From an uncultured Verrucomicrobiota bacterium (lineage in GTDB: Bacteria > Verrucomicrobiota > Verrucomicrobiia > Limisphaerales > JADLHS01), in NCBI GenBank assembly GCA_903828255.1, contig CAIKLQ010000093.1:1-36959 (forward strand): a stretch of 36,959 nt of DNA, in the 5' to 3' direction. The notes beneath the pieces are model-generated. The model was not told where the DNA came from and made no database searches. It worked only from the letters and a program-made list of their open reading frames with translations. Made by a program: the position numbers and the translations under genes. This document shows positions 856 through 26,222 of the stretch, one piece after another. Each line of letters opens with the position of its first letter. Within the stretch, counting starts at the first letter, position 1.

Positions 856-945
856 GCGGCGGCAACCCGTTTTCAATCACCCCCGCAATCAGGCTCAGTT
901 AATCCTTGAGCTTTCAGATTCGCGGCGTAAAATTTCGATGAAGAT

Positions 946-8453: not shown

Positions 8454-11400
8454 TTACCAAGTAACAGCGCGGTAGTAGCGGATCGGGTTTGTCCCAGTGC
8501 CCGGATCCACATACTGGAAGCTGCCAAAGGTGGCGAGATTGGTAGAGATATTTTGCCAGCCAATGGGAAACGCTAAGTTGGTGGCCCGTTGGATTACGTA
8601 TTCTCGATTCGTCTGGCCTTGGCCCAGAATCAGCACACTGTCATTGGTCTGCATCAGGAGTTGGAGGTAGGCAGGCGTGGAAGCGTCAATGGGCAGGCTG
8701 ATCGGCAATCTCACGTTGTCAAGGAACGCAGCGTCCAGCCCCTTGCTGATCGTCGAATCCTTGGTGTAACGCCATTCCAAAGTGTGAGAGCCAAAGGACA
8801 AGGGGAACGAATAGCTGGTCCAATCAATCTCGCCCGACCACTGTTGCTGCAACACCCCATCCACAACGAAATTCAGGAAGTCCCAGGGCGTCTCCGAACT
8901 GACTTTGAAATAGAAGGAGGCCACGCCACCGCTGAAGTTCGTCGTAAAGACCAGGGAGCTGGTTTTATTGTTGCCGATGTCCCCGGACTGAGCCGAGAAG
9001 CTCCCTGCCAGCACCGTAGCCGACTGGACCGTCCAGGGCAGGTCGCCGGAAGAAGTCCACCCGAGCTTCGACAGGTCTCCTCTTTCAAAATCGTCCGTGT
9101 AACTGATGGGACGAAAATTGGCCGTGACCGTCATGTTGGAATTGACAACGAGCGACAATGGATTCTTGGTCGCTGTGAGATCGCCGCTCCAACTGTCGAA
9201 TTGGAAGAATGAATCCGGCGTCGCGGTCAAGACCACGGTAGCGTTGCTGACCACGTCACCCGAGGCGGGATACACCTGGCCGTTGCCTGCGCTGTTGAGT
9301 GTGAGAACGAACAGGCTCGCGGGAGTGAATGCATACTGGAGCGCAACGATCCCAGAAACGCCATCGTAACCATCCACAGCGATGTGATAAATTCGATCGG
9401 CTCGGACAGGCTGGGTCATCTGGCTGAAGCCACGCGAAGCACCGGGGTAGGCATCGTCGTTCATCGCCACCGCAGTGAGTCCGTTAACGGTGTCGCCGGT
9501 GTACAGCCCGAGTAAAGTATCAAACGTCGAGTTGGTGGTGCTCAAGGCAAGGAAGCCATCCGCCGGAGGTTGGTACCACCACCAAACAGATTTTCCGCCG
9601 TTGATTCCCGCATGAGCGGGTTCACCCGGTTCCTTCGTCGCGCTGGTGGTAGCTGCTGAAGCCACATCCGGCACGGCGGTAAGCTCCAGCGCGTTCACAA
9701 AAAAGTCATTGGTGGGAGTCGCCGAAACGTAATTGACCTGAATGGACACGGGCGAGGAAAAATTCCCCGCCTCGTCCAGCGCCCGGACCTGAATCGTATT
9801 GTAACCCTGCGTCAACAAGGCCGGCGCGGTCCAAGCGGTCGTTCCATTGGCAGAAGCGCTCAGGCCGCCATTGATGGCGACCAAAACCTCCATGACGCCG
9901 GAGGCGTTCGGCAGCGGATCAAAGGCCGTGCCAGCAATGTTCACGTTGGGGCTATAGACGGTTAACCCGCTCAATGGACTTGACACAAAAACAGACGGGG
10001 GTGTAGTGTCGAACTGACCGCCCGGGGCGACCCGCAACTGGATGGATCCCAAAGCATTCGTGCTCGCCGCCGCCACTGCAATCCGATAGCCCACCCCAGC
10101 CTGAGCGCTAAAGCCGACATAAGCGGGCTGATGCTGCCCTAAGTTGCTATTCGTGGAAACCATCGGCGTGAGGTTGGTCAGTGCGTTCCCGGTATAGACG
10201 GCCAGCACGGTGTCAATCCGGCTGCCGGTCAGGTCAAGAAACACGTTCGTGTTGCGGGTCGGTGTATAAACCCACCAAAGCGAGGCGGCGGCACTCGAAC
10301 CCCCTTGGTGCGGAGGCTCGTTCGTCTCCAGCGTGGCAAACTGGTTGTTCGCGAGATACATGCCGCCACCCACGTCAACTTTGCTCGCGTTGGTGAAGAA
10401 ATCGTTGGGGGGTGGAGGAGCAACTGAGTAATTGACGAGGTTGGTTACGGCGATCTTTCCCGGCGCGGAAGCGATGACCGTCATCACCAACGGGTTGGTG
10501 GCGCCCGGCACCTTGAAAACCGAGCTGTAGATATTATCATTGGAAACCGCATCCGGAAAACGGCCGTTGTTGGTGAAAATGAGATTCGTATATCCCGCGA
10601 TGGAAGCCGTTACCGTCGCGTTGTAAACGCCAAAGGTGTCGAAAACCTTAACGTACACCGACTGCGCAGCGGAAGTGAGCAAGACAGATCCGGACGGGGG
10701 AGTAACGCTGGCCAACAACTGGCCGGTGCCAGTCAACGTAAGCGAAGTGTGGGCGTTTAATCGCCCACCGGTGGTCGTGACACCATTCAAGGCCAGACTC
10801 GGCGTAGTTCCCATAAGGATTCGTTGGCGCACTTCCGTGTAATCAGCCGAAGGATACAGAGCCAAAATCAAGGCCGCTACGCCAGTGACATGTGGAGCCG
10901 CCATACTGGTTCCAGCGATTGTGTCGTAGGCGGTATCGGAGGTGTTCCAACAAGAGTAAATTTCTACCCCCGGCGCGCCCAGATGGACAGTTTTCAATCC
11001 GTAATCCGAGAAACCAGCCAGATTGTCGCTCCTATCGATTGCGGCAACCGAAATGATGTTGTCCAGCTGATAATTCGCCGGATAATGCGGAACCTGGTCG
11101 TTGTCCATATCATCATTCCCGGCAGCAGCGATAAAAAGCACGCCCTTCGCCCGGGCAGCATTGATGGCGTTGAACATGGTTTGAGAGTAACCGCCACCAC
11201 CCCAACTGTTGTTCATGACGCGCGCCCCATTGTTCACGGCGAAATTGATGCACGTCACGGCGTCGGAAGTGGCACCGGAGCCGCCCGCGCTCAGGAACTT
11301 GCACCCCATAAGCCTAACCTTCCATGTAACCCCCACCGAAGCATTCTGGTCGTTCGCGGCCGCGCCAATGGTGCCCGACACATGAGTGCCGTGGCCGTTA

Positions 11401-12080
11401 TCATCCATGGGGTTGCTCGTCCCCGTGATTGCGTTGATTCCGAAAGTGCCATTGGTTGGGTTGCGCCACATTTGATTCGTCAGATCACGATGCGTGTAGC
11501 GAATCCCGCTATCAATGACTGCCACAATGACATTCGTGGATCCCGTCGTGAGGTTCCAAGCGTTGGTCGCCGCGATATCGGTGCCGGACTTGCCGCCGCT
11601 CTGGCCGTAGTTGCGGAGACCCCAGAGCGTCCCATCCACAAATTTCGAGTCGGTCGGTGCCACGGTGGCGTGGACGATGTAATCAGGCTCGACGTAGGCA
11701 AACTGACCCGACTGCACCAAAGCCGTCATGCGGGAAGTCAGCAGTGCTTGAAGTATGGTGGGGCTGTTAGTGGCGGTATCAGTCGGGTTAAGGTCATCCA
11801 AAACCACCATCCCGGGCACGATGTCATATTGCCGCAGAACCTGCATCCCAGCCTGCTCTAGCAAAGGCGCGTTGGCGGCGATCCGATTGGCGCCCTTAAA
11901 CTGGGCCAAGATGCGCGTTGGATGGACTTCGAAGCCACCGAGGGTCACGGAGGTGGTCACCGCCTTCAGAGTTAATGTGCCCATGCACATGACCACAAGG
12001 AACGCGAGCGAAAATGTCGCTACGCCACATGGAGACCGCACCAGCCGTTGCCAGATGGAGAATTGATACCGAATTTTCAT
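8454..12080 (-). CDS. Secreted subtilisin-like serine protease (S8) with C-terminal adhesion-type domains
   Basis: A 1,208-aa preproprotein. An N-terminal signal/membrane segment spans about residues 15-40, followed by a propeptide-like region (about 50-135). The S8 catalytic domain has Asp190 (VIVAVIDSG), His230 (DDNGHGTHVSG), oxyanion Asn322 (IAAAGND) and Ser392 (GTSMAAPH), so it should be active. Next comes a chain of beta domains: a filamin-like region (about 460-555), two NDFF-type modules (about 559-690 and 791-915), an Ig-like domain between them (695-785), a divergent InlB B-repeat-like segment (about 925-990), a jelly-roll-like domain (about 995-1125), and a C-terminal module (1134-1208) ending RYYRAVTW. 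It is the last gene of a four-gene set, 113 bp after its neighbour. A weak hairpin without a T-run follows at 8418-8442. The likely role is extracellular protein degradation or processing of co-secreted neighbours. Confidence 0.93.
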   Translation of the reverse strand: MKIRYQFSIWQRLVRSPCGVATFSLAFLVVMCMGTLTLKAVTTSVTLGGFEVHPTRILAQFKGANRIAANAPLLEQAGMQVLRQYDIVPGMVVLDDLNPTDTATNSPTILQALLTSRMTALVQSGQFAYVEPDYIVHATVAPTDSKFVDGTLWGLRNYGQSGGKSGTDIAATNAWNLTTGSTNVIVAVIDSGIRYTHRDLTNQMWRNPTNGTFGINAITGTSNPMDDNGHGTHVSGTIGAAANDQNASVGVTWKVRLMGCKFLSAGGSGATSDAVTCINFAVNNGARVMNNSWGGGGYSQTMFNAINAARAKGVLFIAAAGNDDMDNDQVPHYPANYQLDNIISVAAIDRSDNLAGFSDYGLKTVHLGAPGVEIYSCWNTSDTAYDTIAGTSMAAPHVTGVAALILALYPSADYTEVRQRILMGTTPSLALNGVTTTGGRLNAHTSLTLTGTGQLLASVTPPSGSVLLTSAAQSVYVKVFDTFGVYNATVTASIAGYTNLIFTNNGRFPDAVSNDNIYSSVFKVPGATNPLVMTVIASAPGKIAVTNLVNYSVAPPPPNDFFTNASKVDVGGGMYLANNQFATLETNEPPHQGGSSAAASLWWVYTPTRNTNVFLDLTGSRIDTVLAVYTGNALTNLTPMVSTNSNLGQHQPAYVGFSAQAGVGYRIAVAAASTNALGSIQLRVAPGGQFDTTPPSVFVSSPLSGLTVYSPNVNIAGTAFDPLPNASGVMEVLVAINGGLSASANGTTAWTAPALLTQGYNTIQVRALDEAGNFSSPVSIQVNYVSATPTNDFFVNALELTAVPDVASAATTSATKEPGEPAHAGINGGKSVWWWYQPPADGFLALSTTNSTFDTLLGLYTGDTVNGLTAVAMNDDAYPGASRGFSQMTQPVRADRIYHIAVDGYDGVSGIVALQYAFTPASLFVLTLNSAGNGQVYPASGDVVSNATVVLTATPDSFFQFDSWSGDLTATKNPLSLVVNSNMTVTANFRPISYTDDFERGDLSKLGWTSSGDLPWTVQSATVLAGSFSAQSGDIGNNKTSSLVFTTNFSGGVASFYFKVSSETPWDFLNFVVDGVLQQQWSGEIDWTSYSFPLSFGSHTLEWRYTKDSTISKGLDAAFLDNVRLPISLPIDASTPAYLQLLMQTNDSVLILGQGQTNREYVIQRATNLAFPIGWQNISTNLATFGSFQYVDPGTGTNPIRYYRAVTW

Positions 12081-12193
12081 GATGTTTTCGTTGTCACAAT
12101 TTCAGCGCAGCAATGGCTCGCCGTTGTACTGCTGTAATGAATCCTGTTCAGACCATCCGTTATCTTCGGCGGGGATCCCGGCCCGTCCGCTCA

Positions 12194-15100
12194 TCAAGGA
12201 GTAAAACCAACCCGATAAAACCGCCGCACGGCTCCAGAGGCCGCATTGGTATCAGTGACGCTCACAACGCGATTGGTGGTTGCGCTGTTCGTGTAACGCA
12301 CCAGCGGCTGCCAGTTGTTCAATGCTGGATTGCTGGAATACTCCACCTGATAAACAGCCTTCGCCTTGGCGGTCCATGAGACGACCATCGCGCTGATAGC
12401 TGGCGTGTTGCCCTTTAGCAGAGAAGCCGTCAGCGCTACCCCGCTGGCAGAGAATGGATACGGGTCGTAGTAATTCGGAACTCCATTGCCATTCGAGTCA
12501 ATGATCTTGCTGTTTCGCAGGGCTCTGTTCACGCTGATGCTCACGCCGTTGCTGACCACGGCCACCGAACTGTTGGGGCCCGCAAAATCCCGAACCCAAC
12601 GCAAGCGGCTGTCGAATTGACCATCCAGATACTCTTCAGGTTGTTGCGGAACGCCATTCGTGGGCGGTGGGGTGAATCCTACCTTCGCCGAAGCGAAGTA
12701 AATGACGAGAGTGGGATCAATCGCGACCAAGTTTTGATAGTTTGTCCCAAGGTCGCTCAAGTCAAGCTGGTCCACATACATGCCGTTGTTGTTGCCCGTG
12801 CCGGAGAAATAGAAATAGGGATATGGGCTTTGGGATGACACCACCAATTTGCCAAGCGCCGTGTTGTTGGTATAGCCTGCCGTAATCGCACCGCGATTGG
12901 CACCGGCCCAAGTATGATCAATTCCAACGGCGTAATTGGCCGGGGCCACGGTTTCGATTGAGGTGCCTAGCAGGTCACCCGTGGGTGGCTTCGACTGCAG
13001 GTTAAACCCATTTTGGACAATGAATTCGTTACCGGAAGCTCCGCCCGCATCGTAAAGCGCATTTGTTACCAACAAATCGAGCGTGCCATTTACGGTCATC
13101 TGGTATTTGTTGAATTTGAGGCTCCCAGACAGGAACTGGGACGATCCGCCCGAGGTGCTGCTGCCTCCCTCAAGAAGGCCTGACCCGCATTGCATCGAGA
13201 GGAAGACATCCGTTGTCAAAGCCCCGCGGTTTTCGAAGTAAACGCTCTTCAAAAGAATGCTCTGCGCACTGACCGTTCCCGTGTTGACGAATGTGGAATA
13301 CGGCGTTGCCCGGTCATCCCCGAAATGAGCAATGCTGGCGATGCTAAAGGTGCCGCGGTTCGTCAAATACAGCAGGGTCGGCGCATTGGCTGACGTCCAG
13401 TCCTGCAATGGCACGCCTGGCGGCGCATACCCTAGAATGGGATTCACCACGGGAACAACCCCCGGAAGTGTCAAACCACCTTCAATGGTCAGGCTACTGC
13501 CGTCTATGAGCAACGATTCAGCCACCGACAGATTGTCGCTGATGAGAACATTCGTGCTGTGGCTGGTAAAGTCATGAACCGTAACTGGAAGTTGCCAAAC
13601 CCCCAAACTTGAAGCATCCAGCATCATAGTGTGGAAGGAGATAGTGACCGTATTCGTCAACGGCGCAAGAGTGGCCCCATTAGTGTCCACAAGGTAGTTG
13701 GTCAACATTAAAACGGCCGTATTGCTCCAGATGGCACTCCACACCCGAATCTGTCCCCGGAACCGGTTCACAGTATCCGGGCTGAGATTCTGAATTTTCA
13801 AGTTCCCGTTGGTGGAAGCGAGATTGAAACTGAGATGCTCGCAATCCACCACCGCATTGCTGCTCGATATCAAATGTGAGCTTTGGATGGTGATCTCCCC
13901 CTCGGCCCGCATCCGTGTGTTGCTTAGGTTCAGGGTGTCCGCTAAGATTCGGATACGGCCCGGTATATTGGTGACCGTCCCCCCAGCGACCGGCGGGGGG
14001 CGTGTCACGACGTTGTCCGCAAAAGCGCTGTAGGAAGCGTATTCTCCCGCCTCCACCACGCTATTGGTGACCGCATCTCCCATCACCCCGGCGAGAAATT
14101 GTCTGGCGCCAGAACTCAGGAAAAAGTCATTGGTCGGGTATCCATTATTGCCCGCTGAATAGCCGATATTCGCAAGGCTGCCCCCAGAATATGCACCCCG
14201 GTCAATGTAATAATTTGCCGGCCGGGAAGTGGTGTATGAAGGACACCCAATGATACTGGTCAGCATCCCGGTGGTACCCAAGCCTCCGTAGGCAAGGTTG
14301 TCTTCCACGTAAAGATAAGCCGGCTCCATCCGGCTGGTCACCGCGTTTGATACTTGCACCGCCAGCAGAACGGCTGCGCTGTTATACCCGGCAAGATTAG
14401 GCCCGGCAAACCCTTGCTGAAGAGCCATGCCAGGGCCCAGACCCACAAACACCGCACCTTTGGTCATGTTGGTGTAGAACGATACGGTGTTGCTGCTACC
14501 ATCCTTGTTGGTGACAACAACTGAGGCAAGGCTCTCGGGAAAGACGTTGATATAGGAATCAGCCTCCGGATTGGCGATCGTAAACCCTGGCCCTCCATAG
14601 GGCCGCACGTCCCCACGACTTCCTTGGGCGCGCGCCGTGGATCCGTTCCAGAGTCTCGCGCTAAACAAAGGGTGATCTTTGTCGTAATTTGTCCGCCCCC
14701 AGTAAAGATCACTGATAGCAATATCGGGCGAGAAATTCGTTTCCCCGGTGCCACTCCCAACCGTTTCAGACCACACTGGCAGAACTTCAATTCCACTGCG
14801 AGAAAGGTCCACATTCTTGCCGGTCAATTCCATCTCCCCATTGGCGCCCACGACCAGCGACGCTTTCGGGGATCCGGAGGAGCCTGCTTTGACCGTGATG
14901 TTGGAGGCCCAAACAATCAAATGACTAGGGCCCACCGGGGCCATGGCGCAACCGTAAAGGTATGGCCGGGGGCCGTCATTCGCCTGTACCACAGCGCCGT
15001 TATCATTGAAGAAGCTGGATGCCATAGTCCGCATCCCGTTCAGGGAGGAAGTCGTGCTAAATCGGAACCCGGGCGTTCCGTCCATAGTTCCGGAGCCAAA

Positions 15101-15313
15101 AAAGGTCCCGACGGTGTTGGTGAAATAGCGCGTATCCCAAGTTTCGTAGGGACCAGCGGTTGAGGCTTGAAACAGACCCTTGTTCACAAAGACGAAGGCG
15201 TCAACTTGGGGATTAAACACCCTTCCAAGATTTTCGTACTTGGCGTCGGCGGCCTTGCTCGCACCCGGGAGCAGGGACAACCCCAGCAATCCAAAAAGTA
15301 ACAATCGCTTCAT
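12194..15313 (-). CDS. Large exported beta-rich protein, function unknown
   Basis: A 1,039-aa protein with a clear signal peptide (MKRLLLFGLLGLSLLPGASKA). The body is rich in Ser, Thr, Asn and Gly, with many short beta-prone stretches (LNLSNTRMRAEGEITIQSSH, GTVSAQSILLKSVYFENRGA). These resemble parallel beta-helix or filamentous-haemagglutinin-like passengers, but I recognise no named domain. The C-terminal 75 residues (about 965-1039) form a module with YQVEYSSNPALNNWQPL and a terminal FYRVGF. It has the same pattern as the ends of the genes at 8454 and 16732. It starts 25 bp after the stop of the upstream gene and so is probably cotranscribed. It may be a surface or matrix protein, and secretion by the adjacent secretin is possible. 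Export is well supported. The function is not known. Confidence 0.85.
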   Translation of the reverse strand: MKRLLLFGLLGLSLLPGASKAADAKYENLGRVFNPQVDAFVFVNKGLFQASTAGPYETWDTRYFTNTVGTFFGSGTMDGTPGFRFSTTSSLNGMRTMASSFFNDNGAVVQANDGPRPYLYGCAMAPVGPSHLIVWASNITVKAGSSGSPKASLVVGANGEMELTGKNVDLSRSGIEVLPVWSETVGSGTGETNFSPDIAISDLYWGRTNYDKDHPLFSARLWNGSTARAQGSRGDVRPYGGPGFTIANPEADSYINVFPESLASVVVTNKDGSSNTVSFYTNMTKGAVFVGLGPGMALQQGFAGPNLAGYNSAAVLLAVQVSNAVTSRMEPAYLYVEDNLAYGGLGTTGMLTSIIGCPSYTTSRPANYYIDRGAYSGGSLANIGYSAGNNGYPTNDFFLSSGARQFLAGVMGDAVTNSVVEAGEYASYSAFADNVVTRPPPVAGGTVTNIPGRIRILADTLNLSNTRMRAEGEITIQSSHLISSSNAVVDCEHLSFNLASTNGNLKIQNLSPDTVNRFRGQIRVWSAIWSNTAVLMLTNYLVDTNGATLAPLTNTVTISFHTMMLDASSLGVWQLPVTVHDFTSHSTNVLISDNLSVAESLLIDGSSLTIEGGLTLPGVVPVVNPILGYAPPGVPLQDWTSANAPTLLYLTNRGTFSIASIAHFGDDRATPYSTFVNTGTVSAQSILLKSVYFENRGALTTDVFLSMQCGSGLLEGGSSTSGGSSQFLSGSLKFNKYQMTVNGTLDLLVTNALYDAGGASGNEFIVQNGFNLQSKPPTGDLLGTSIETVAPANYAVGIDHTWAGANRGAITAGYTNNTALGKLVVSSQSPYPYFYFSGTGNNNGMYVDQLDLSDLGTNYQNLVAIDPTLVIYFASAKVGFTPPPTNGVPQQPEEYLDGQFDSRLRWVRDFAGPNSSVAVVSNGVSISVNRALRNSKIIDSNGNGVPNYYDPYPFSASGVALTASLLKGNTPAISAMVVSWTAKAKAVYQVEYSSNPALNNWQPLVRYTNSATTNRVVSVTDTNAASGAVRRFYRVGFTP

Positions 15314-15338
15314 AATTCGTCTCCTGAAAGCCCGGCAA

Positions 15339-16727
15339 TTAGTAGCCGTTCAAAACCTGCTGTTCCAATTCTTGGATGGAACTTCCGACGGGATAAACGA
15401 CAGGCTCATTGGCGGTGCCATCGAAAGAACCCCAAACCCAACCGCCAAAGCCGGTGATTTCGTCCAAAAAGCTGCCGCCGTCAAACGGGCCAAGGTTGTA
15501 TATGAAGGGGCCAATCTTGTTGAATGTAAGCACGATTGGCCCGGAGATGACGCCGGGGCCGGCCAAAGCTGCTTGGCCATTGAGTGCATCGTTATTGATC
15601 CATACTGGAGCAGCCGCAAAGGTCCGCCTGATAAAAATGGGATTACCTCCGCCATCTAAACCCAAATCTTCTGCGGAGATAAGGATGTCAGGCTGAGTCA
15701 GGACTCGCTGGATGGTTTGGGTCACCAAGGTTGAATTGGTGATATACGTGTCTTGGTATTGATTTGTTTGCGTGATGAACTGCCCCATCATCGAGTCATA
15801 GCGGCCCTGTTGGAAGGTTAGGTGGTCCACGCCAGGGCGGGGCGACACGCCGACCGGAGCGTTGGTGCCCCCAGTCTGCCCCGCCGGCCACCACGGACTA
15901 CTACTGTTGGCCAAGCTTGCGCCAGCAGCCACATTCTCCGTGTTGACGTTGCTCGCGCGATAGAGATATCGCAATCCGCCCACGTCATCACGAGTCAACC
16001 CCGCATAGAATTCGCCAAAACCCAAGCCTGGTCCTGACGCCCCGGAACCAGCCGCCGAGGTAACCAAACTATCTATGTCGGATGCCACGGCCGTGAATCC
16101 GGACGCCAAGGGGTCCACCTGCACTTCAATAGCATCCCACCATGGCCCGGGAAATTCCAGAATGCCGTAGGTGTACAACACCCCATTCACGTAGGGGGTT
16201 GGCGACAAGGTAACGGGGTCAAAATTCCGCTTAATCACCAAATAGTAAGGAATGGCGTTGATGACGCGTCGGTCGCGCAGGGTCCATGCGTAACGCTCTG
16301 GACTGGCCAAGCCCAACTCCTCCGTCAGCATACCCAGCAAGGCGGATTTCACATCCTGCAACCCCAAGGCACTGGCCCGGTAATTGGCTCGCCGGGTGTC
16401 GGTGGGGAATTCAGCCAGATTGGCACTCATCTGGGAAAACGCTGGCAAGCTGTTCAGGATGGCGAAGGCTTTGTTGACGGCGTCCACCCCCTTCTGCCCG
16501 AAATAATTCAGGAAGGACTCGTCAATTCCGTAGGTGATCGTCTTGAGGTTCCAACGATACTCTTCCCCGAGATTCAATGGCCCGCCAATGTCGAACCCAA
16601 GGGGGTCATAGCCGATTTCCGGAGTTTGCCAAGCTTCGCGCGGCCCAATCAGCGAAAATGCCTGTGCTGAATGCACGGCGGCAGCAACCGTGAGAGCGAA
16701 TAAAGCTTTTTGAAGGTGTCGCAGCAT
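15339..16727 (-). CDS. Exported protein with matrixin-like layout but no zinc motif
   Basis: Starting at ATG 16727 gives 462 aa, a good signal peptide (LFALTVAAAVHSAQA) and a 4-bp gap from the upstream gene. A start at 16769 would add 14 residues and overlap that gene. The N-terminal half resembles the frame of matrixin-type metalloproteases: an ITYGIDESFLNYFGQKGVDAVNKAF segment in pieces, then a helix at about residues 130-143 (LLGMLTEELGLASP) where a matrixin has HExxHxLGLxH, then GLTRDDVGGLRYLYR (243-257), like the DD..GI..LYG end of that fold. The zinc histidines are missing. The C-terminal part is Gly/Asn-rich with no known domain, and lacks the FYRV module of its neighbours. It is probably a catalytically dead family member, a binding protein or a chaperone of the set. 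Confidence 0.85.
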   Translation of the reverse strand: MLRHLQKALFALTVAAAVHSAQAFSLIGPREAWQTPEIGYDPLGFDIGGPLNLGEEYRWNLKTITYGIDESFLNYFGQKGVDAVNKAFAILNSLPAFSQMSANLAEFPTDTRRANYRASALGLQDVKSALLGMLTEELGLASPERYAWTLRDRRVINAIPYYLVIKRNFDPVTLSPTPYVNGVLYTYGILEFPGPWWDAIEVQVDPLASGFTAVASDIDSLVTSAAGSGASGPGLGFGEFYAGLTRDDVGGLRYLYRASNVNTENVAAGASLANSSSPWWPAGQTGGTNAPVGVSPRPGVDHLTFQQGRYDSMMGQFITQTNQYQDTYITNSTLVTQTIQRVLTQPDILISAEDLGLDGGGNPIFIRRTFAAAPVWINNDALNGQAALAGPGVISGPIVLTFNKIGPFIYNLGPFDGGSFLDEITGFGGWVWGSFDGTANEPVVYPVGSSIQELEQQVLNGY

Positions 16728-16731
16728 AAAA

Positions 16732-18255
16732 TTATTGCGGACGAATGACCCGGTAGAACGAGATGCCACTAGTGGCGCTGACTGTCACGGAATCGGTGTA
16801 ACCAGCCGCCGTCCGCGCCGCGCCAAAGTTGGTCCACTTCACGTTGTCAGCGGAAGTTTGCACATAATAGGCCAAACCTGGCTGGGTGTTCCAAGAGAGG
16901 GTCATGCCGGCCGGAGCGTTGGCCGTTTCCAAGCGGATGAGATCATACGAACGGGCAAACAGATCGAAGCTGGTGCCAGCCACGAACGAGGACCAGAGCA
17001 CGAGAAAGCGATTGCGTCCATCCGAGGCAACCGTAGGGTGAATCTGCCGGCTGGCGGTGGTGGTATTGACCCGAAACTCCACGCCCGCCAGATCGCCGCT
17101 GCTGGTGAGAAACTGACCGAACACCCCTTCGCGCGACGCGTCCTGACCCAAGCTGCTCCAGACCGCAAGGAAATTTCGGCCAAAGGTGCTGAGCTTGGGA
17201 GCAAACTGGTCGCCGTGGGTTTGGGTATTCAGGCAAACCGCAGCGCTGGCCGCGGCACCATTCGCATTGAACAACCGTCCATAGACATCCCAGCTCTTTT
17301 GGGATTTTGTAGTCGCCGGGAAACCGGTGCTCGCGTTTTCGATCCCCCGCACCATTCCGTCTTTCTGACTCCAAGCCACGGCAAACCCGCCTTGTGGAGA
17401 GCCAGCCACCGTGGGATTGGCGCACATGTTGATGGCGTCGGCGTTGGCAGGAAACTCGTTGCCCACGGCCAAGCCAGAAGGAGTGAAAACTCGCCCATAC
17501 GCATCCACGCTCGCGGAGCTGCGCTGTAGCTCCGTGATCCAGACCACGACAAAATTGGAATTGGCCAACGCCGCCACCGCTGGCGTTCGCTGGTTTTTTG
17601 ATGTCCATTGGTTGATCTGGAACTCTGCCCCCAACTTCACGCCAGCGGCGGAGAATCGCTGACCGTAAATCCCCTGCAAGCTTCCGTCCTGGCCATCACT
17701 AGCCCAAACAATCATCACGCTGCCATCCGCAAGCGTGGCCACACTAGGGTTGATCTGGAAGTTGTTGGTGTAGGTGTTGACGAGCAGGTCACTGGTAAGA
17801 AAGGTCCCGTTGGCGGCATAGAACCGGGCATAAATCTTTTGAAATCCGTAACGGCCACCCTGCCAGACAAATACTGCGCCGCCGTCCTTCAACAAAGCCA
17901 CCTGAGCTTTTTCCTGATCACCAATGTTGGCGCTGCTGGCAACCGAACTGACCGAGAAGGGCGACTGTGATTGGGCGAGGCTGGTGTTAAGTAGTTGCGC
18001 CCGAATTCTCAGGCCGTTGGTATTCACCGCATTGTCCTGCCAGACCAAATAGCCTCCGGTGGCCGTCACCGCTGCTTGGGGGCTGGTTTGATCACCGGCC
18101 AAAGCCCGCCCTATGACGTAATCATTCCCGCCTGGGGAGAAAGCATTCTGGCCCCGGACCAACAAGGGAATCGCCAGAAGCCAGACAAGAATGACTGGTT
18201 TTCGGGCCGCGCACAGCAGTGGTGACATAAAGTATATTCTTTTTAGCAAGGTCAT
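16732..18255 (-). CDS. Exported seven-repeat protein, predicted beta-propeller, with C-terminal FYRV-type module
   Basis: The start at ATG 18255 (alternative ATG 18228) gives a signal peptide with the core VILVWLLAIPLLVRG. The upstream in-frame ATG at 18363 adds 36 residues that do not look like an export signal. Seven repeats each end in a hydrophobic-VW motif: GGYLVWQ, GGAVFVWQ, GSVMIVWAS, NFVVVWITE, GFAVAWSQ, NFLAVWSS and RFLVLWSS. The tryptophans are 53-71 residues apart. Most repeats also contain an IYGRxF-like strand after the motif. Seven such repeats suggest a seven-bladed propeller. The last 70 residues hold the module with YYVQTSADNVKWTNF and the terminal FYRVIRPQ. It is the first gene of the four-gene exported set, about 260 bp after the exonuclease gene. 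I see no clear promoter in 18256-18515. Confidence 0.87.
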   Translation of the reverse strand: MTLLKRIYFMSPLLCAARKPVILVWLLAIPLLVRGQNAFSPGGNDYVIGRALAGDQTSPQAAVTATGGYLVWQDNAVNTNGLRIRAQLLNTSLAQSQSPFSVSSVASSANIGDQEKAQVALLKDGGAVFVWQGGRYGFQKIYARFYAANGTFLTSDLLVNTYTNNFQINPSVATLADGSVMIVWASDGQDGSLQGIYGQRFSAAGVKLGAEFQINQWTSKNQRTPAVAALANSNFVVVWITELQRSSASVDAYGRVFTPSGLAVGNEFPANADAINMCANPTVAGSPQGGFAVAWSQKDGMVRGIENASTGFPATTKSQKSWDVYGRLFNANGAAASAAVCLNTQTHGDQFAPKLSTFGRNFLAVWSSLGQDASREGVFGQFLTSSGDLAGVEFRVNTTTASRQIHPTVASDGRNRFLVLWSSFVAGTSFDLFARSYDLIRLETANAPAGMTLSWNTQPGLAYYVQTSADNVKWTNFGAARTAAGYTDSVTVSATSGISFYRVIRPQ

Positions 18256-18515
18256 GGAATCTGGTCCACGCATCTCTGCAAAGCCGACATGGCCGCCGGG
18301 CAAAATCCCAGCCGCCGCGCGACTCTGTTTCTCTGTACAACCAACAAAATTGACATAAGCCATCTTACCGTCTCCACCAGACCAATTATTCTAGTCCGGG
18401 ATTCCCGCTCGCACAACCGATTCCAAAAATTTCCACCATTCGTCCGTCGCCCTCCGGTTTGGGTTTGCCGGTTCGGGCCGCACCAACCGCGTAGATTGCT
18501 CCCTCAAGAACGATG

Positions 18516-19487
18516 CTAAAGCAAAACTTCCTGGCGGGCCGATTCGAGCTCAGCCAAGAGAGAGCGGAAGCCCCAACCTTGGAACAAGTCGCACAACGCC
18601 TCGGTGTTCGCCGGCTTTTCCACCAACTCATGCAACTCCGTCTCAAATGGCAGATCATCCGGCAGTCGCACCAGTGCCACATTGCGCCGAACCGCTGCCG
18701 CCGCAGACTGCAAAGCCCCGCGCACGCGTTCCGACTTCACGTCGTCCAAGTGCCCGTAGAGTCCCGTCACGGACCCAAATTGTTTCAACAACTCGGCGGC
18801 GGTTTTTGGTCCCACGCCCGGCACGCCTGGTATGTTGTCCACGCTGTCCCCGATCAAAGCGAGCCAGTCCACAATCTGGGCCGGATTCACGCCGGTTTTC
18901 GCCCGCACCTGCTGCGCCGTCCAAACGGATTCAGACTTGTCGTTCGGATTCAACAAGCCTATCCTTGGCGACACCAACTGCATGAAATCTTTGTCCGCAC
19001 TGGCGATGACTACGTTGCAACCCGCCCGCGCCGCCCGCTGGGCCACGCAAGCAATATAGTCATCCGCTTCCACACCATCCGCACAGAACGAAGTCACGCC
19101 TGCCGCATCCAAATAGGCAACCAATTCGTCCATCTGCACTGCCAAGTCCACAGGCATCGAAGGACGTTGCGCCTTGTACTCCGGCAGAGCGGCCAACCGC
19201 TCGGCACTGATCCCCCCATCCCAAACCACGATCAAATGAGTCGGTAATAGCGTCGCCCGCATCTTCGCCAGCATCTTGATGAATCCGTAAATGGCGTTGG
19301 TCGGCTCGCCGGTGGGCGATCGCAGCGTGCGAATCGCATAAAACGCGCGATACGCGTAAGCATGACCATCAACGATTAATAGCCTAGACTCTCGGGTCTG
19401 GCCGCTAAAATCTAATGCCTCCCGTCCGAAGTCCCCCGACTCCCGACCCGAGACACCAGACTCCAGAGTGTTACAGACCTTAGTCAT
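18516..19487 (-). CDS. Stand-alone 5'-3' exonuclease (PolA N-terminal/FEN-like)
   Basis: A 323-aa protein equal to the 5' nuclease part of DNA polymerase I, without proofreading or polymerase domains. From about residue 35 it reads LLIVDGHAYAYRAFYAI. It keeps metal-binding motifs GVEADDYIA and IASADKDFMQLV, the GDSVDNIPGVPGVGPKTAA helix-three-turn motif, and the C-terminal basic/helical part. Such enzymes remove RNA primers and flaps. The start (ATG 19487) lies 4 bp after the secretin stop, so it is probably coupled to the pilus/secretion operon, an odd setting for a DNA enzyme. Residues 1-34 are not part of the family and come from GC-rich repetitive DNA (see findings). No other ATG, GTG or TTG in frame lies closer to the domain. 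Confidence 0.93.
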   Translation of the reverse strand: MTKVCNTLESGVSGRESGDFGREALDFSGQTRESRLLIVDGHAYAYRAFYAIRTLRSPTGEPTNAIYGFIKMLAKMRATLLPTHLIVVWDGGISAERLAALPEYKAQRPSMPVDLAVQMDELVAYLDAAGVTSFCADGVEADDYIACVAQRAARAGCNVVIASADKDFMQLVSPRIGLLNPNDKSESVWTAQQVRAKTGVNPAQIVDWLALIGDSVDNIPGVPGVGPKTAAELLKQFGSVTGLYGHLDDVKSERVRGALQSAAAAVRRNVALVRLPDDLPFETELHELVEKPANTEALCDLFQGWGFRSLLAELESARQEVLL

Positions 19488-19491
19488 CTAC

Positions 19492-22257
19492 CTATTTTCC
19501 CAAGGCATTAGAGCTGTCGGCGACGGCCCTCTGAACCGGTGGAAGACTGTTCACATCGAACGGCATGGTGCCATCCGGGTGCATCCGATTGCCCGCCGGA
19601 TCAATGATCGTTGGCGTTACAAAGATCACAAGGTTACGCTTAAAGTTTTGAGTGGATTCACTGCGGAACAGTTTTCCAATCCACGGCAGATCCCCCAGCA
19701 CCGGCACTTTGTCTTTGTGTCGGGTCACGTTTTCAGAAATCAGCCCGCCCAGAACCACGGTCTGTCCATCCCATACAATAGCGCTGGTGGTAATTTGTCG
19801 AACGCGCGTATGCGGCAGCGGCAGTTGCGCGGTGATCGGGGTGCCGAGGCTATTGCCGGCCCCACCCTGGGCTTGCGGGATGAACGCGCCTGGATCGTCG
19901 TAGCGGACAAACTCGGTAATCGTGGGAATAATCGTCAGTTGGATCGTGTAACCGTCGGCCGAGATGTAAGGAATCACATCCAGCGTCGTGCCTTCTGGGA
20001 ACGGCGTGGTGGGATAATTAACCGTGGTGCCGACGGCACCGCCGCCACCACCTGTGTTCACAGTGGTCCCACCAGTACCGCCGCTGCCTCCGCTGGAGGT
20101 TTGGTTCTGCGAGACGCCGCTCACCAATGTTAAGATGTCCACAACCTGAATTTGGGCCTGGCGTCCGCTTGGGGTAAGCACCTCGGGCGCGTTGAGCAAA
20201 TCCACGCCGCTGCGCTGTTCCAATGCCTTCAAAACCACTCGAAATTGCGGATCGGTCAGGATTCCGCTGATGGTAGCCAAAGCCGGCACGTCCCGTGGGC
20301 TGGAACCCTGCCCACCCCCAACAACATTCCGCAAACTACCGGAGAGCAAAGCATCCGTGGCGGCAGGCGCAATGGCGGTCCCAGCGAGCGTACTGCCGGG
20401 GAAAGTCCCCTCCGGATTAGCCGTGCTCGGATTACCGGTGAACGACGGCTGCGTCCCAGCCGAACCAACGACGTTGTTTCCAAAAAACATGTTACCCAGA
20501 AACCAATCGAAACCCAAGGCTTTAACGTCACCCTGGGTGATTTCAACAAACTTGGCCTTGATGCTGATCTGATGCGGAACAATGTTCAGTACTTGGATGA
20601 TCTTCTCAATGTCGTCCAGGTCTTGCAGCGAGGCCTTGACGAGCAAGACTCCAGCGCGGTCATTCCAGAAGACAGATTTCGGAGGGTTCAAATCTATGCC
20701 CATGAGCGTGAAGAAATTCCGAACGGCGGCATGAACTTGCTCCATGTTGTTGGTCTTGGTCAAGAAACTCACGCCACCACCACCACCGCCACCACCACTT
20801 TGTCCGCCACCTTGTCCCCCGCCCCCACCGCCACCCTGGGTGCTGCCGCCAGCAACATTGACGCGCGGAATACTGACACCGCCACCACCCTGACCCCCCT
20901 GGCCACCTTGGCTACCGCCACCACCACCGCCACCACCGCCACCGCCACCACTTTGGCCGCCACCCCCACCGCCACTGCTATTGCCACCAAGGTCTCCGAC
21001 GACGAGTGATCCGACACTTTCCAAACCCTGGTAGAACGTGTTCGGGTCCACCTTATACTGCCGCATGAACAGCGGAGAATTCTCCGCTCCTTTCAGGGAG
21101 AACATAATGCCCCACTCTTCGATCGAGTATTTGAGCGGTTTGTCCGCCACCTGGATAATAATGTCCAAGACATCCGCCAATCGCATGTCGCTTAGCGCAG
21201 GGTTAATTTTCACCGGAATCGAGGCAACGTCCACGGCTTCCTGCGGCGGGGCTGCGACTGGGAGCCCGGTGCTCGGATCAATTGCAGTGAGTCCGGCTGG
21301 TGCCGCAGCCTGTGAGTTCGGATTAATTATGAAATTGAGACCCTTTTTAAGTGGGTCGCGCTTTCGAGTTTCGTCACTAAGTGTTCGAACCACCTCGCTA
21401 AGGGGAAGCCCGTCGAAGAACACACTGTCCAACTTAGTTGAGTTAAGTTTGCTGACAACCATCTGGCGACCACTACCAGTCCAAATCAGAGTATTGGTTG
21501 CAAAAGGGTTTGGCACGGGAAGATTTTCTCCTTTGTTCGCCGGCGACCAGTCCTGCTCGACCTTCACCGTGGAGTCCTTGGAATTTTGTTCGCGCAGGCG
21601 ATCGGCCTGACGATAGCGACTCTCTTTTACGAAACTGAGATAGTAAAACGCAGCTTGGTTTTCCGGATCTAGTTTTAGCGCTGCTTTCAATTCCTTTTCC
21701 GCCTCATCAATCTTGCCCATTTCCAACAAAAGTTTCCCGTTTTGGACATGGGTGCCAGCCGACGCTTTCTCTCCTTGTATCTGCCCGATGCGCTCCAGCG
21801 TCTCCGCATTCGGCTCCCGCCCTTTCAACGAGTCCAGAACGACCTCGTTCTCCTTCATGAGCGACAGACCGGCGGCATTCTGGGGATCAACTTTGAGCAC
21901 CAACGATAGGTGGGTCTTGGCCTCGTGGTAATCGCCATTTTTTTGCGCGGCGCGGGCAAGTTCGAGTTGTATGCTGGCGTAGCCGGAGATGGTCGCCGAT
22001 TTCTCAGCATCAATGTTGTTGCCGATGCCCAGCACAAGTTTATACGCCTCCTCGTACAGCTTCGCGGCCGCAGGGATGTCCTTGCGCGCCTCGGCGGCTT
22101 GGGCATCCGCGATTTTTTGTCGGAGGGTGACCCGATCCGCTTCGCGTTGAACGGCTTGTTTGATGGCGGTGTCGGTGGCGGTAGATTGAGCCCGGCCGAT
22201 GACGACGGTCCCACTCAGGACGATCAGACCGATGGAGAGGTAGGCTGCTTTAGTCAT
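19492..22257 (-). CDS. Secretin (GspD/PilQ superfamily), Amuc_1098-like, with TPR N-terminus
   Basis: The outer-membrane pore of a type IV pilus or type II secretion-like machine. It has a signal peptide (AYLSIGLIVLSGTVVIGRA). A TPR-like helical region (about 45-225) has two repeats, with AAKLYEEAYKL and AEKELKAALKLDPENQAAFY. N-domains follow at about 280-420, then a Gly-rich linker (about 424-496), another N-domain (about 500-570), and the secretin domain ending with VPVLGDLPWIGKLFRS and NLVIFVTPTIID. The 921-aa length is long for the family because of the TPR part and the glycine tracts; a second one lies inside the secretin domain at about 735-765. It is fourth in the operon, 33 bp after its neighbour. 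The TPR region may replace a separate pilotin or TPR protein. That is inference. Confidence 0.95.
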   Translation of the reverse strand: MTKAAYLSIGLIVLSGTVVIGRAQSTATDTAIKQAVQREADRVTLRQKIADAQAAEARKDIPAAAKLYEEAYKLVLGIGNNIDAEKSATISGYASIQLELARAAQKNGDYHEAKTHLSLVLKVDPQNAAGLSLMKENEVVLDSLKGREPNAETLERIGQIQGEKASAGTHVQNGKLLLEMGKIDEAEKELKAALKLDPENQAAFYYLSFVKESRYRQADRLREQNSKDSTVKVEQDWSPANKGENLPVPNPFATNTLIWTGSGRQMVVSKLNSTKLDSVFFDGLPLSEVVRTLSDETRKRDPLKKGLNFIINPNSQAAAPAGLTAIDPSTGLPVAAPPQEAVDVASIPVKINPALSDMRLADVLDIIIQVADKPLKYSIEEWGIMFSLKGAENSPLFMRQYKVDPNTFYQGLESVGSLVVGDLGGNSSGGGGGGQSGGGGGGGGGGGGSQGGQGGQGGGGVSIPRVNVAGGSTQGGGGGGGQGGGQSGGGGGGGGVSFLTKTNNMEQVHAAVRNFFTLMGIDLNPPKSVFWNDRAGVLLVKASLQDLDDIEKIIQVLNIVPHQISIKAKFVEITQGDVKALGFDWFLGNMFFGNNVVGSAGTQPSFTGNPSTANPEGTFPGSTLAGTAIAPAATDALLSGSLRNVVGGGQGSSPRDVPALATISGILTDPQFRVVLKALEQRSGVDLLNAPEVLTPSGRQAQIQVVDILTLVSGVSQNQTSSGGSGGTGGTTVNTGGGGGAVGTTVNYPTTPFPEGTTLDVIPYISADGYTIQLTIIPTITEFVRYDDPGAFIPQAQGGAGNSLGTPITAQLPLPHTRVRQITTSAIVWDGQTVVLGGLISENVTRHKDKVPVLGDLPWIGKLFRSESTQNFKRNLVIFVTPTIIDPAGNRMHPDGTMPFDVNSLPPVQRAVADSSNALGK
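20773..20987. repeat. Low-complexity GGN/NCC tract encoding polyglycine in the secretin
   Basis: On the plus strand this is mostly CCACCG/CCACCA triplets, with islands encoding SIPRVNVAGGS and Gln-rich spacers. It encodes about 70 residues, over two thirds glycine. Triplet slippage here would change the linker length without breaking the frame. Confidence 0.85.
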
Positions 22258-22290: not shown

Positions 22291-23121
22291 TCAAGGGGCG
22301 GCAGTGTAGGGTCTGGGTGTTTTTTTGTTGTTCGACTTTGCGGATAATACAACTTCGTTCTTGCTGATGGCAACGACAATAAACGACTCACTTGCAATTA
22401 CGACGGCCGGCATACCGGGACCACCCGCACCAACCCGCTGCTTACTCCAAGTCTTGTTGTCCGGCGGATACTTGAGGTCGGCCTCGTAGCCGTCCACCCG
22501 TTTATATGGTTTTTCCTTGGATAGCGAAACGCGCTCGCCGGTGTCAGTCATTTCAATGACCAGTTCGGTCGGATTATCCGGCGGCCCCTTGACTTCCCGG
22601 AGGACGAACGTATCGGTCTTCCCGTTTAGCGGTGCGGGGTAGTGTTTGCGGGTGCGTTGGGAACTCTTCGCGGCGGCTTCCTTCTCCACGGTGAAGTCAT
22701 ATCGCGCGGACGTATCGGCGGTCGGCGGGGCCAACACCGCCTCGAACACGATGGTGGTGTAAAGTGGCGAAATCTTGATCACCTCGATCGCTTCTGGACC
22801 AATTTGGTTTCCCGACGAAAGTTTCCTCAGCGTCGTATTGTCCTCGCCTTTTCGCAGCCAAGGCAGCGTGTTAAATACCTTGTTCGAGTTCGAAAGGTCG
22901 AGGCAGCCCGCCCCGCCCATCCGTTCGATCAAGAAGGTAGATTTGCTGAGATCCAGCGCCTCCAACGGTTTGGCCGGTCGGTTGATGATTTCCTCGGACT
23001 GGGCCTGCAACTTCGCCCGCTCGCTTGGAATCATCAAGGTCAGAAAGGCCGCGCCCGCGGCCAGGCCCAGCAACACCACCCCCAGCAAAACTTTCTCGTA
23101 ATGTTTTTTTAGGAAATCCAT
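22291..23121 (-). CDS. Single-pass inner-membrane protein in the PilP/GspC position (Amuc_1099 position)
   Basis: With ATG 23121 as start the protein has 276 aa and begins MDFLKKHYEKVLLGVVLLGL, a short basic cytoplasmic tip and one membrane helix (about 8-30). The start at 23190 would overlap the upstream gene by about 60 bp and put Pro-rich residues in front of the helix. The rest is periplasmic, mixed alpha/beta, with a C-terminal SESFIVVAISKNEVVLSAKSNNKK. This resembles the short beta domains that PilP/GspC use to contact secretin N-domains. Sequence alone does not place it in PilP or GspC. The call rests on topology and on its place between the PilO-like gene and the secretin. Confidence 0.85.
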   Translation of the reverse strand: MDFLKKHYEKVLLGVVLLGLAAGAAFLTLMIPSERAKLQAQSEEIINRPAKPLEALDLSKSTFLIERMGGAGCLDLSNSNKVFNTLPWLRKGEDNTTLRKLSSGNQIGPEAIEVIKISPLYTTIVFEAVLAPPTADTSARYDFTVEKEAAAKSSQRTRKHYPAPLNGKTDTFVLREVKGPPDNPTELVIEMTDTGERVSLSKEKPYKRVDGYEADLKYPPDNKTWSKQRVGAGGPGMPAVVIASESFIVVAISKNEVVLSAKSNNKKTPRPYTAAP

Positions 23122-23128
23122 GCGCGAT

Positions 23129-24205
23129 TTATGGGGCGGCGGGGGCAGCGGGGACAGCTTGGGCAACCGACGTTTTACGGCTGACGCCAACTTTTACGAC
23201 CTGCACGAGCATCGTGACCTTTAGTTGTTTCTCGTTCAGCACCGCGCGAGGCGCGGTGGAAACGGGTGCGACCAATGGCGCGGCCAATGGCGGAGGCGTG
23301 TAAGCTTGGGGCGGGCGCATTCCACCACCATCCTTGCCCATGCCATATCTACCGCCATACCTCTCATTAAAGGCACTATTGGGCTGGGTTGGACGAGGGG
23401 CTTCCAGAACTGGCTGGTAAGTCATCACGGGTTGCACGGCCTCGACTACCGTAACAGGTGCCAGCTCAACATTGAAACTCTTGACGATGATTCCATGATG
23501 TGAACTTGCAAACCCGCACAACACTTGGGCGAGTTCCGGGGTGAAGCAGCGGAACGTGAACTGGTAGGGCGTCAGTGCAGCCAAATCGGTTTCTTCCGTT
23601 TTCTGATCAAGGTAATCGGTCATCTGCCCGGCTTGGTCATCGGGGGAAACCCGCTCGCGCTGGATGTTATCCAGCGCGTTGACCTTGGCGGCGATCAGCA
23701 CTTCGGACAAGACTTTGACTTCCCCAAGCTGCACCGCCAGTAGGGCGGGACTGCCGGGCGCGAACTTCATAAGGCTGCTCTGCTGCTGAAATGAGAAAGC
23801 ATACTTGGGGGGCAAGATAACGCTGGCATTTGTAGCCTCCCGCTGGAGGTAGGAAATAGTCCGGGACAAACTGTTGGCAAAAGCTTCCGCAGTCACATTG
23901 GTCTCATCCGGCCGGATGGCCGGGATGGCCGGGATGGCTACAAATTGAGTCTTGGCCTGTTCGTAAACCTTGCGCACGGTCTGCTGTTGTTCGCGCGCGG
24001 TCTTGATATTATCCACCTTGCTGCTGCCCGGATTGAGATTGAGGCCAGACAACCGTTTGAGGTCTGCGTATTTGGCGAGCAATTCCTCGCTGGCAGCGGT
24101 ATCGTGGCTGTAGCCGGTCCAAGTATAAAAACCGGCACCCACCATCAACAACAGCGCGACCGAGGCACCGATGACAAAGACTAAATTACGTTTGATCCAG
24201 TCCAT
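23129..24205 (-). CDS. PilO/GspM-like membrane protein, probable homologue of Akkermansia Amuc_1100
   Basis: ATG 24205 gives 358 aa, starting MDWIKRNLVFVIGASVALLL, one N-terminal membrane helix followed by a coiled coil (about 30-95) and two ferredoxin-like halves. It lies 1 bp after the stop of the PilM-PilN gene. A start at 24301 would overlap that gene by 95 bp. Similarity to Amuc_1100 is seen in layout: the membrane helix, a FANSLSRTISYLQ segment, a PPKYAFSF segment, a PALLAVQLGEVKVLSEVLIAA segment in parts, and a Pro/Ala-rich tail before the last strand (KVTMLVQVVKVG). Amuc_1100 is the abundant envelope protein of A. muciniphila, with a PilO/GspM-like fold. The homology is judged by eye from memory of that protein. 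Confidence 0.88.
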   Translation of the reverse strand: MDWIKRNLVFVIGASVALLLMVGAGFYTWTGYSHDTAASEELLAKYADLKRLSGLNLNPGSSKVDNIKTAREQQQTVRKVYEQAKTQFVAIPAIPAIRPDETNVTAEAFANSLSRTISYLQREATNASVILPPKYAFSFQQQSSLMKFAPGSPALLAVQLGEVKVLSEVLIAAKVNALDNIQRERVSPDDQAGQMTDYLDQKTEETDLAALTPYQFTFRCFTPELAQVLCGFASSHHGIIVKSFNVELAPVTVVEAVQPVMTYQPVLEAPRPTQPNSAFNERYGGRYGMGKDGGGMRPPQAYTPPPLAAPLVAPVSTAPRAVLNEKQLKVTMLVQVVKVGVSRKTSVAQAVPAAPAAP

Positions 24206-24206
24206 A

Positions 24207-26222
24207 TTACGGCGGAGCGGGCTGTGTAGTCGGATCGGCCGGCTCGACGGCGGGTTTGATTTTGTCGGACTCTTTGACTTTCCGGCTGACTGACATGACA
24301 AACGTGAAAGTAAGGTTGGTTTCGTCCACCCGGATCTGCTCCGCAGTCAACTCCGTTTTCAGTGGGTCGAGAAGCGCACATCCCTTCAATCCACTTCCTC
24401 GATTATCTTTCGAGGGGGCCTCGCCCTGAACGGCGTAGGCTAGTTCTTTATTCGCGGTCGCCGAGACACTGTCAAGACTGACGGCCCGGAAAGTAATCGT
24501 TATGGCGTTGGTATCAGGGGCCGCCGCGCCAACCGCCCCAGGGACACCTAGTTCGCCACCGGGAGCGGCCCCACCAAACCTGCCCGGCTCGCCTGGCAAA
24601 GCCATCGGACCTGGCCCGCGACCACCCGGCCCGATGCCGTAACGCTCCCGGAACATTTTCTGTCGAATCGCATCCTCCGCGCTAGGGGCACCGGTGGGTG
24701 CTGCGGGTGCGGCTGAAGCCCCACCAGATGGGTCCGCCGCCGCCGCCACTGAAGCCAAGTTTGGACAAGCCATCTGCTCAATCCACACGCCAGTATCCAC
24801 GCCGAGCTTCCGCTTATTGACCGCCTCAACGCGGATGAGAATCTCGCGAATTTCCTTCACCAAATCCACCCACTCATAACGGTCCCGGATCCAGCCCGTG
24901 AGTTTATCGAGCTGCTGCTGGCTGGTTTTGAGATCGCCACTCGCTTTCTTAAATTGCGTTTCTTTGGTCTGCAGCGGCGCGATTTGCGTATCCAGCTTCG
25001 CGGACTCGGCCTTCTTCACATCCGAGAGCTTCTCGAACAACAGCCCGACCGCGAAAGCCATCGCCACCAGACTGAAGACCGTGGCGATAAAATAGGGTTT
25101 CTTCTCGTTGAAACTCTGCCAGCGAAGCGTGCTGTCCGGCATCAGGTTCAGTTCCACGGGGCAATGTGCCAAGTTGCGCAGCCCCAAACCGACCACTTCG
25201 CCCAGCGCATGCGCCACCCGCGCCAGCTCTTCGAGGTTCACCCCGGAGTCAATCTGAACGGAACGGAAGGGATTAAAGTACTCGACCGGCACGTTGAGCT
25301 TCTCCGCAAAGAACTGTGCCGTGTAAGGCATGATGGACGCCCCGCCCGCCAAGAATAACCGCTGAGGCGCGGAACCGCCTTGTTGCCCGCGGTAAAACTG
25401 TAGCGTCTGATTCACCTGGATGTGCAGGCGCGTCATGAATTGGCGGGCAATCTTGGAAATCGCGGCTTGATGCGGGTTCTCCGGCTCTTCGTACGCGCCG
25501 CCCAAGCTGACAAAGCCCTCATCAATCTTGATCTTGTCCGCCTGATCGAATTTCAACTTCGCCTCGTTAGCGAAGTCCTGCGTGATGGAGTTCGCGCCCA
25601 AGTTGATGCTGCGGGAAAAAACCTTGCCTTTCTCGAAGAACAGAAGATTGCTGGTCTTGGCCCCAATATCGAGGAGCATGGTGCAATCTTCCAACTCGCC
25701 ATAGTTGTAGCGAAACGCATTGCACAAGGCCGCCGGCGAGACATCCGCCACTTGCAACTTCAGCCCGGACGTCGCCGCCACACGGAACAGCCCCTCGACA
25801 ATGTCTGCCTTGATGGCGACTAGCAAAACTTCCAATTCGCCGCTCGCCGTGGTGCCCAGAATCTGGTAATCCCAAACCACCTCCGCCAGCGGGAACGGGA
25901 CGTTTTGCTGCGCCTCGTATTGGATAATCTGGGTGACTTTGTTCGCCTCCACCGGCGGCAATTTCACAAACTTGGAAAACACTTGGAAGCCGGCCGCACA
26001 GACATTGACATCCTTGGACTTGATGCCGCGCTCCGCGATGACTTCCTGAAGCGCCTTGAGCAAAATAGCCTCGCGCTTCGTCTCCGACGAGGCATCCAAG
26101 CCCAGCGGCTTGATGACGAAGTGTTTCAGGCGCAGCCCGCCTGACTCGTTCACCTCAAACTCGGCGAGCTTGAGGCTACCTGCCCCAAAATCAACCGACA
26201 AGAATGACTTTACGTTCAACAT
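24207..26222 (-). CDS. PilM-PilN fusion, type IV pilus/T2SS assembly ATPase-fold protein
   Basis: A 671-aa protein. Residues 1-350 are an actin-like PilM domain (FLSVDFGAGSLKLAEFE near the start; phosphate-2 region MLLDIGAKTSNLLFFEKGK at about 182-200; LFLAGGASIMPYTAQFF at 289-305). It continues into a PilN-like part with VELNLMPDS, one membrane helix (about 375-396), a coiled coil (about 400-460) and a periplasmic ferredoxin-like region. The latter is split by a Gly/Pro/Ala-rich insert (about 505-585). In most bacteria PilM and PilN are separate proteins that bind through the PilN N-terminus, so fusing them fixes a 1:1 ratio. It is the first gene of the operon. Upstream on the minus strand a TTGACC lies at about 26310, but no good -10 box follows at the right distance. 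Confidence 0.95.
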   Translation of the reverse strand: MLNVKSFLSVDFGAGSLKLAEFEVNESGGLRLKHFVIKPLGLDASSETKREAILLKALQEVIAERGIKSKDVNVCAAGFQVFSKFVKLPPVEANKVTQIIQYEAQQNVPFPLAEVVWDYQILGTTASGELEVLLVAIKADIVEGLFRVAATSGLKLQVADVSPAALCNAFRYNYGELEDCTMLLDIGAKTSNLLFFEKGKVFSRSINLGANSITQDFANEAKLKFDQADKIKIDEGFVSLGGAYEEPENPHQAAISKIARQFMTRLHIQVNQTLQFYRGQQGGSAPQRLFLAGGASIMPYTAQFFAEKLNVPVEYFNPFRSVQIDSGVNLEELARVAHALGEVVGLGLRNLAHCPVELNLMPDSTLRWQSFNEKKPYFIATVFSLVAMAFAVGLLFEKLSDVKKAESAKLDTQIAPLQTKETQFKKASGDLKTSQQQLDKLTGWIRDRYEWVDLVKEIREILIRVEAVNKRKLGVDTGVWIEQMACPNLASVAAAADPSGGASAAPAAPTGAPSAEDAIRQKMFRERYGIGPGGRGPGPMALPGEPGRFGGAAPGGELGVPGAVGAAAPDTNAITITFRAVSLDSVSATANKELAYAVQGEAPSKDNRGSGLKGCALLDPLKTELTAEQIRVDETNLTFTFVMSVSRKVKESDKIKPAVEPADPTTQPAPP

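Follow-up and report, generated by a model that had tools for sequence, protein, structure and literature searches.

A C-terminal module on many exported proteins of Verrucomicrobiota as a candidate tag for sorting or surface attachment

The secretin locus

The window, that is the whole 36,959-nucleotide stretch of DNA analysed here, contains a secretin locus in which all the genes described below lie on the minus strand. Its upstream part encodes PilM (24207..26222; PF11104, E 8.6e-40), two uncharacterised proteins of 390 residues (23129..24301) and 299 residues (22291..23190), neither with a Pfam match, and a secretin with N-terminal TPRs (19492..22257; PF00263, E 8.1e-33). Judged by position, the 390-aa protein may be of the PilN/PilO type and the 299-aa protein of the PilO/PilN type; the latter is kept beside the secretin in relatives, the former in part. 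The secretin matches the Amuc_1098-type model NF042912 with an E of 1.1e-103, which is below the curated cut-off, and is of the same type as that of the Amuc_1098 (PilQ) locus in Akkermansia muciniphila (PMC4960237). A 5'-3' exonuclease of housekeeping type (18516..19487; PF02739, E 3.3e-47) is embedded in the locus. Downstream follow an exported-looking 543-aa protein (16732..18363) with no domain above cut-off and with orthologues only in the order of the source organism, an exported-looking 476-aa protein (15339..16769) that has no Pfam domain and is syntenic in 17 relatives, an exported 1039-aa protein (12194..15313) with the signal peptide MKRLLLFGLLGLSLLPGASKA, no Pfam or NCBIfam domain and syntenic orthologues, and an exported 1208-aa subtilase-type protease (8454..12080; Peptidase_S8, PF00082, E 3.9e-52). 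The 476-aa protein is longer in several relatives, where it ends with a different, Ig-like repeat, as seen by eye.

The coding sequences ending at 8454, 12194 and 16732 share a common C-terminal module that makes up their last ~70 residues, and the 476-aa protein lacks it. Module 1 (8457..8678, 74 aa) closes the S8 subtilase, which terminates in YYRAVTW; module 2 (12197..12421, 75 aa) closes the 1039-aa protein, which terminates in FYRVGFTP; and module 3 (16735..16944, 70 aa) closes the 543-aa protein, which terminates in FYRVIRPQ. The bodies of the three proteins are unrelated in pairwise BLASTP (all E >0.1), and a pairwise comparison of the three ends gave weak similarity, with a best E of 0.004. 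We then built a leave-out HMM on 38 copies from elsewhere in the genome, excluding those of the window. Among the 520 open reading frames of the window it found exactly three matches, modules 1, 2 and 3, with E values of 9.4e-19, 2.7e-9 and 2.1e-5, and the best E among 12,362 reversed reading frames was 0.012; the similarity of the modules is thus not due to chance. The first-pass annotation had described three neighbouring proteins with unrelated bodies and the same kind of end, and this is what we find: the strings it quoted are present, and the HMM picks out these very proteins.

The gene order is kept in 18 relatives from 14 families, as far as their contigs reach. The secretin is followed by the exonuclease (missing in some), then by the proteins of the 16732, 15339 and 12194 types in turn, and in many cases by an S8 protease or a giant protein. 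Most relatives retain this position of the exonuclease, behind the secretin and ahead of the module proteins. Module 3 is recognisable by eye in the orthologues of 16 of the 17 relatives with an intact end; with the window included, the figures are 17 by eye and 11 by HMM out of 18 intact ends. On the same count, the module is present in about 13 of 15 orthologues of the 12194-type protein (10 by HMM) and in 7/7 of the S8 type. One genome (G035) has two modules in all, one of which sits in the secretin locus. The 16732-type protein and the linkage to this locus were not seen outside the order; the link between the module and the secretin locus is thus order-specific. The syntenic orthologues represent one inherited arrangement and not independent events.

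Size and distribution of the family

We searched the source genome (8.9 Mb in 1053 contigs) with one module end and found 59 places. A profile made from an alignment of 41 rows (A1) gave 353 candidates and 150 scored places, 145 of them at E<=1e-4. This puts the family at 145 copies or more in the genome from which the window comes. Within the order, 37 of 38 genomes carry the module, and copy numbers of 20 to 137 are the rule; the module-poor ones are G018 (0), G035 (2), G037 (3) and G031 (10). An even sample across the phylum gave a patchy distribution, with 94 of 240 Verrucomicrobiota genomes positive, and a scan of public genomes (GTDB) returned four named relatives, all Verrucomicrobia. 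No relative of the module was found in the viral contigs and plasmids searched. Among the Pfam and NCBIfam models compared with the 41 modules (E<=1), none covers the module meaningfully and none is a sorting-domain model, and a literature search found no published description.

Position, ending and cargo

We determined the position of the module in copies with an intact 3' end, drawn from the contigs of the source genome, from other genomes of the phylum and from GTDB. No more than 10 residues separate the module from the stop codon in 93/104, 44/46 and 4/4 copies, respectively, or 141 of 154 in total, and the protein nearly always continues for just 0 to 3 residues beyond the model. A further 17 copies, many of them weaker matches, all end within 9 residues of the stop. 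The 13 internal copies comprise four ahead of an FGE-sulfatase-type domain, some in tandem and a few weak matches. As a control, canonical Fn3 domains (PF00041) occupy 10 places in the same genome; these are mostly internal, and none is a module. The expectation that hits would always be C-terminal therefore holds for almost all copies, with the 13 internal ones as exceptions, and the converse, a module found as often inside proteins, is not what the copies show. The FGE-sulfatase-type domain lies C-terminal to the module in the four proteins at L072, L083, L089 and L052.

The ending itself is uniform. The consensus reads G.F.F...G..G..Y.V(E/Q).STNL....W..L.TN...G...F.D......RFYRV...P. Of the copies, 99% have the Arg of FYR, and 4-7 residues usually lie between FYR and the stop. 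The final residue is proline in 54/93 copies of the source genome (58%) and in 25/44 of other genomes of the phylum (57%), compared with 14/111 control reading frames (13%).

Signal peptides were assigned by a simple rule cruder than SignalP, so that only the contrast between carriers and controls counts: 80% of the carriers whose 5' frame is intact (72 of 90) have a signal-peptide-like start, against 35 of 111 control reading frames from the same loci (32%), and several of the negatives are visibly truncated frames. Signal peptides had been expected on every carrier; most, not all, have such a start. A Pfam scan of 62 carriers from the source genome matched 104 families, chiefly Ig, HYR, P-domain, RCC1, S8 subtilase, PKD and beta-propeller; the module also closes enzymes, the S8 protease among them, and proteins shorter than 300 residues. 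Overall, the copies make up a genuine and numerous family that has no name and sits overwhelmingly at the C-terminus of exported proteins with unrelated bodies.

Predicted fold

We ran AlphaFold2 twice on 6-row alignments, once led by the window copy (module 1) and once by a relative. The runs gave pLDDT values of 74.1 and 87.8, respectively, and the same six strands. Structural comparison returned Fn3 domains; the whole model is aligned and stops about one strand before the Fn3 end, with alignments extending over residues 2..76 of 93 in Tencon and 805..876 in tenascin, so that matches cover the first ~73 of ~90 residues. Both models have as their top VIA-align match the Fn3 domain at the N-terminus of the pectate lyase PelI, at 14% identity and with Z scores of 8.1 and 7.4, which the tool itself warns are not distinctive. 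The models, built on six-sequence alignments and with middling Z scores of 7-8, predict an Fn3-like sandwich with strand order A-B-C-C'-E-F and without strand G. The PF00041 model itself did not match the modules, either in Pfam scans or in a PF00041 search of the genome. Sequence similarity to the discoidin domains of a glucanase from Paenibacillus is weak (E 0.0012), as is that to an Fn3-like protein, and the F5/8 type C (discoidin) model gave a best E of 0.043 against the modules, well below cut-off. We rejected a discoidin or galactose-binding identity, for which there are only weak sequence matches; both predicted models are Fn3-like.

Interpretation

C-terminal sorting domains define whole secretion systems, with the T9SS CTD as the model case, and how cargo is chosen in type II secretion is a long-standing open question. 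We know of no universal signal for secretin-based pathways, and to our knowledge no sorting or surface-attachment tag of this kind has been known in Verrucomicrobiota. With the same end on many different exported proteins, the module is a good candidate for such a tag. The reading that we favour is that Verrucomicrobiota proteins exported by Sec carry it for sorting or for attachment to the surface, and that it works like the T9SS CTD while being a different domain, a proposal that we consider evenly poised between right and wrong. The sorting-domain reading of the first-pass annotation draws support from the C-terminal bias, the export signals and the diversity of the cargo, and is plausible; the link to the secretin is not exclusive, and 13 of the 154 copies are internal.

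The carriers would be exported by Sec and would fold in the periplasm. With strand G predicted to be missing, the protein would close with a strand (consensus RFYRV) that borders an open edge of the sheet, and a component of the outer membrane or cell surface may recognise the module there, possibly by strand addition. Common recognition would bring unrelated cargo to the same putative destination. The likeliest machine would be a type-IV-pilus/type-II-like secretin system, with that of the window as the leading candidate in this order. In its most specific form, a transferable Fn3-like tag that lacks its last strand and is recognised through strand addition by a secretin system of the type-IV-pilus/type-II family, the idea seems rather unlikely to us. 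If true, it would make the module a general tag for a secretin-based pathway. An unannotated domain with up to about 150 copies per genome would show which proteins of a major soil and water phylum are destined for the surface or the exterior, and would offer a way into the question of how the secretin systems of this phylum select their cargo.

The main rival sees in the module a generic Fn3-like domain for interaction or carbohydrate binding, which happens to sit at the C-terminus of exported proteins, attaches to polysaccharide, cell wall or proteins and plays no part in sorting; we take this to be quite possible, if on the doubtful side. The predicted Fn3-like fold agrees with it, the similarities to glucanase discoidin domains and to an Fn3-like protein, weak as they are, point in its direction, internal, N-terminal and tandem copies do occur, and the carriers are proteins of extracellular type. 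However, so strong a preference for the very end (141/154) and so uniform an ending, with proline as the last residue, are unusual for binding modules, and canonical Fn3 domains in this genome lie mostly inside proteins. The module resembles PF00041 domains in predicted strand order and fold, yet it escapes their model, would lack strand G and is strongly C-terminal. The Fn3 domain of PelI/Pel3 carries determinants of type II secretion (PMC7949064), a precedent that speaks for the proposed sorting role, but it differs from the module in being N-terminal, a full Fn3 domain, limited to one enzyme family and only 14% identical. That the module merely caps long repeat proteins at their C-terminus, aiding folding or protease resistance in cis only, appears improbable: many carriers are indeed long repeat or beta-rich proteins, and a C-terminal proline would be expected to resist carboxypeptidases, but the module also ends an S8 protease and short proteins (<300 aa), and its predicted fold looks self-contained.

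The T9SS CTD is a seven-stranded Ig-like sandwich with the signal in its last strands, of which the last 22 residues can suffice (PMC4804311). The type A CTD of Bacteroidota resembles the module in its ~70-80 residues, its extreme C-terminal place, its Ig-type sandwich, which for the module is predicted, and its occurrence many times per genome on Sec-exported proteins that are otherwise unlike each other. It is nevertheless very improbable that the module is a divergent T9SS CTD served by a T9SS, even if size, place, signal peptides and sandwich agree (compare PMC4804311). None of the NCBIfam or Pfam sorting models matched the module, which is predicted to have six strands, not seven, in an Fn3-like arrangement without G, and which ends in RFYRV...P; the translocon gene SprA, the T9SS gene sought, was found in 0 of 40 genomes in a search that had no positive-control signal. 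PEP-CTERM, GlyGly-CTERM, LPXTG and similar signals share with the module the common end on different exported cargo, but they consist of short motifs with a transmembrane helix and a basic tail, whereas the module is predicted to be a folded domain and has no helix. A PEP-CTERM-like signal for an exosortase is the least credible reading and extremely improbable. Exosortase is present in 34 of 38 genomes of the order, which says nothing about the module, and is missing from the near-complete genomes with the fewest modules, G018 (0) and G035 (2), a pattern seen in two genomes, which is too few to rely on; yet among the 141 C-terminal ends we counted 0 PEP motifs, 1 hydrophobic stretch and 3 basic tails (last six residues with at least three K/R). 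The earlier remarks that the ends lack a hydrophobic helix and that anchoring would not be of the PEP-CTERM type are borne out by these counts. We also rejected the idea that exosortase replaces modules in module-poor genomes, since the pattern is the opposite, with exosortase absent from G018 and G035.

Candidate machinery

We compared the occurrence of secretins and modules across the sampled genomes and found no secretin type both necessary and sufficient for modules. Judged by gene order alone, the best candidate for the machine in this order is the T4P/T2SS-like secretin system encoded in the window. A tie between the module and this secretin had been suggested; the gene order kept within the order supports it, but Amuc_1098-type secretins also occur in module-free genomes. 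As an exclusive partner this type was rejected, since it is present in G018 and in genomes of the genus g33, which are module-free. The secretins of g33 give the highest scores with the Amuc_1098 model, and in the three genomes tested the secretin is present and the module absent.

A PilQ-like secretin (type X) is present in 25 of 38 genomes of the order and, among the matches first listed, seemed absent from module-poor genomes. We rejected it as the partner because, with a specific profile, it is missing from the module-rich genomes G019 (92 modules) and G024 (73). A GspD-type (T2SS/T4P-type) secretin occurs in 93 of 94 module-positive compared with 113 of 146 module-negative genomes. Its presence fits a need for this secretin; as an explanation we set it aside, the pattern being confounded by phylogeny.

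A second PilM/PilQ-like locus was also seen (L148, which is G000:C113, L149, L163 and L153), with a distinct secretin of 510-660 residues. In three genomes (G001, G005 and G015) the next gene in this locus encodes a large exported protein that ends in the module. Contig C306 of the source genome begins with an end very similar to that of the second-locus module protein. In several genomes of the order, GspD-type matches fall in two adjacent frames, covering model positions ~1-300 and ~274-600, and possibly represent a split secretin. The frame split is seen at G000:C465 (L160) and elsewhere, and one stop is read through in G008, G036 and G011.
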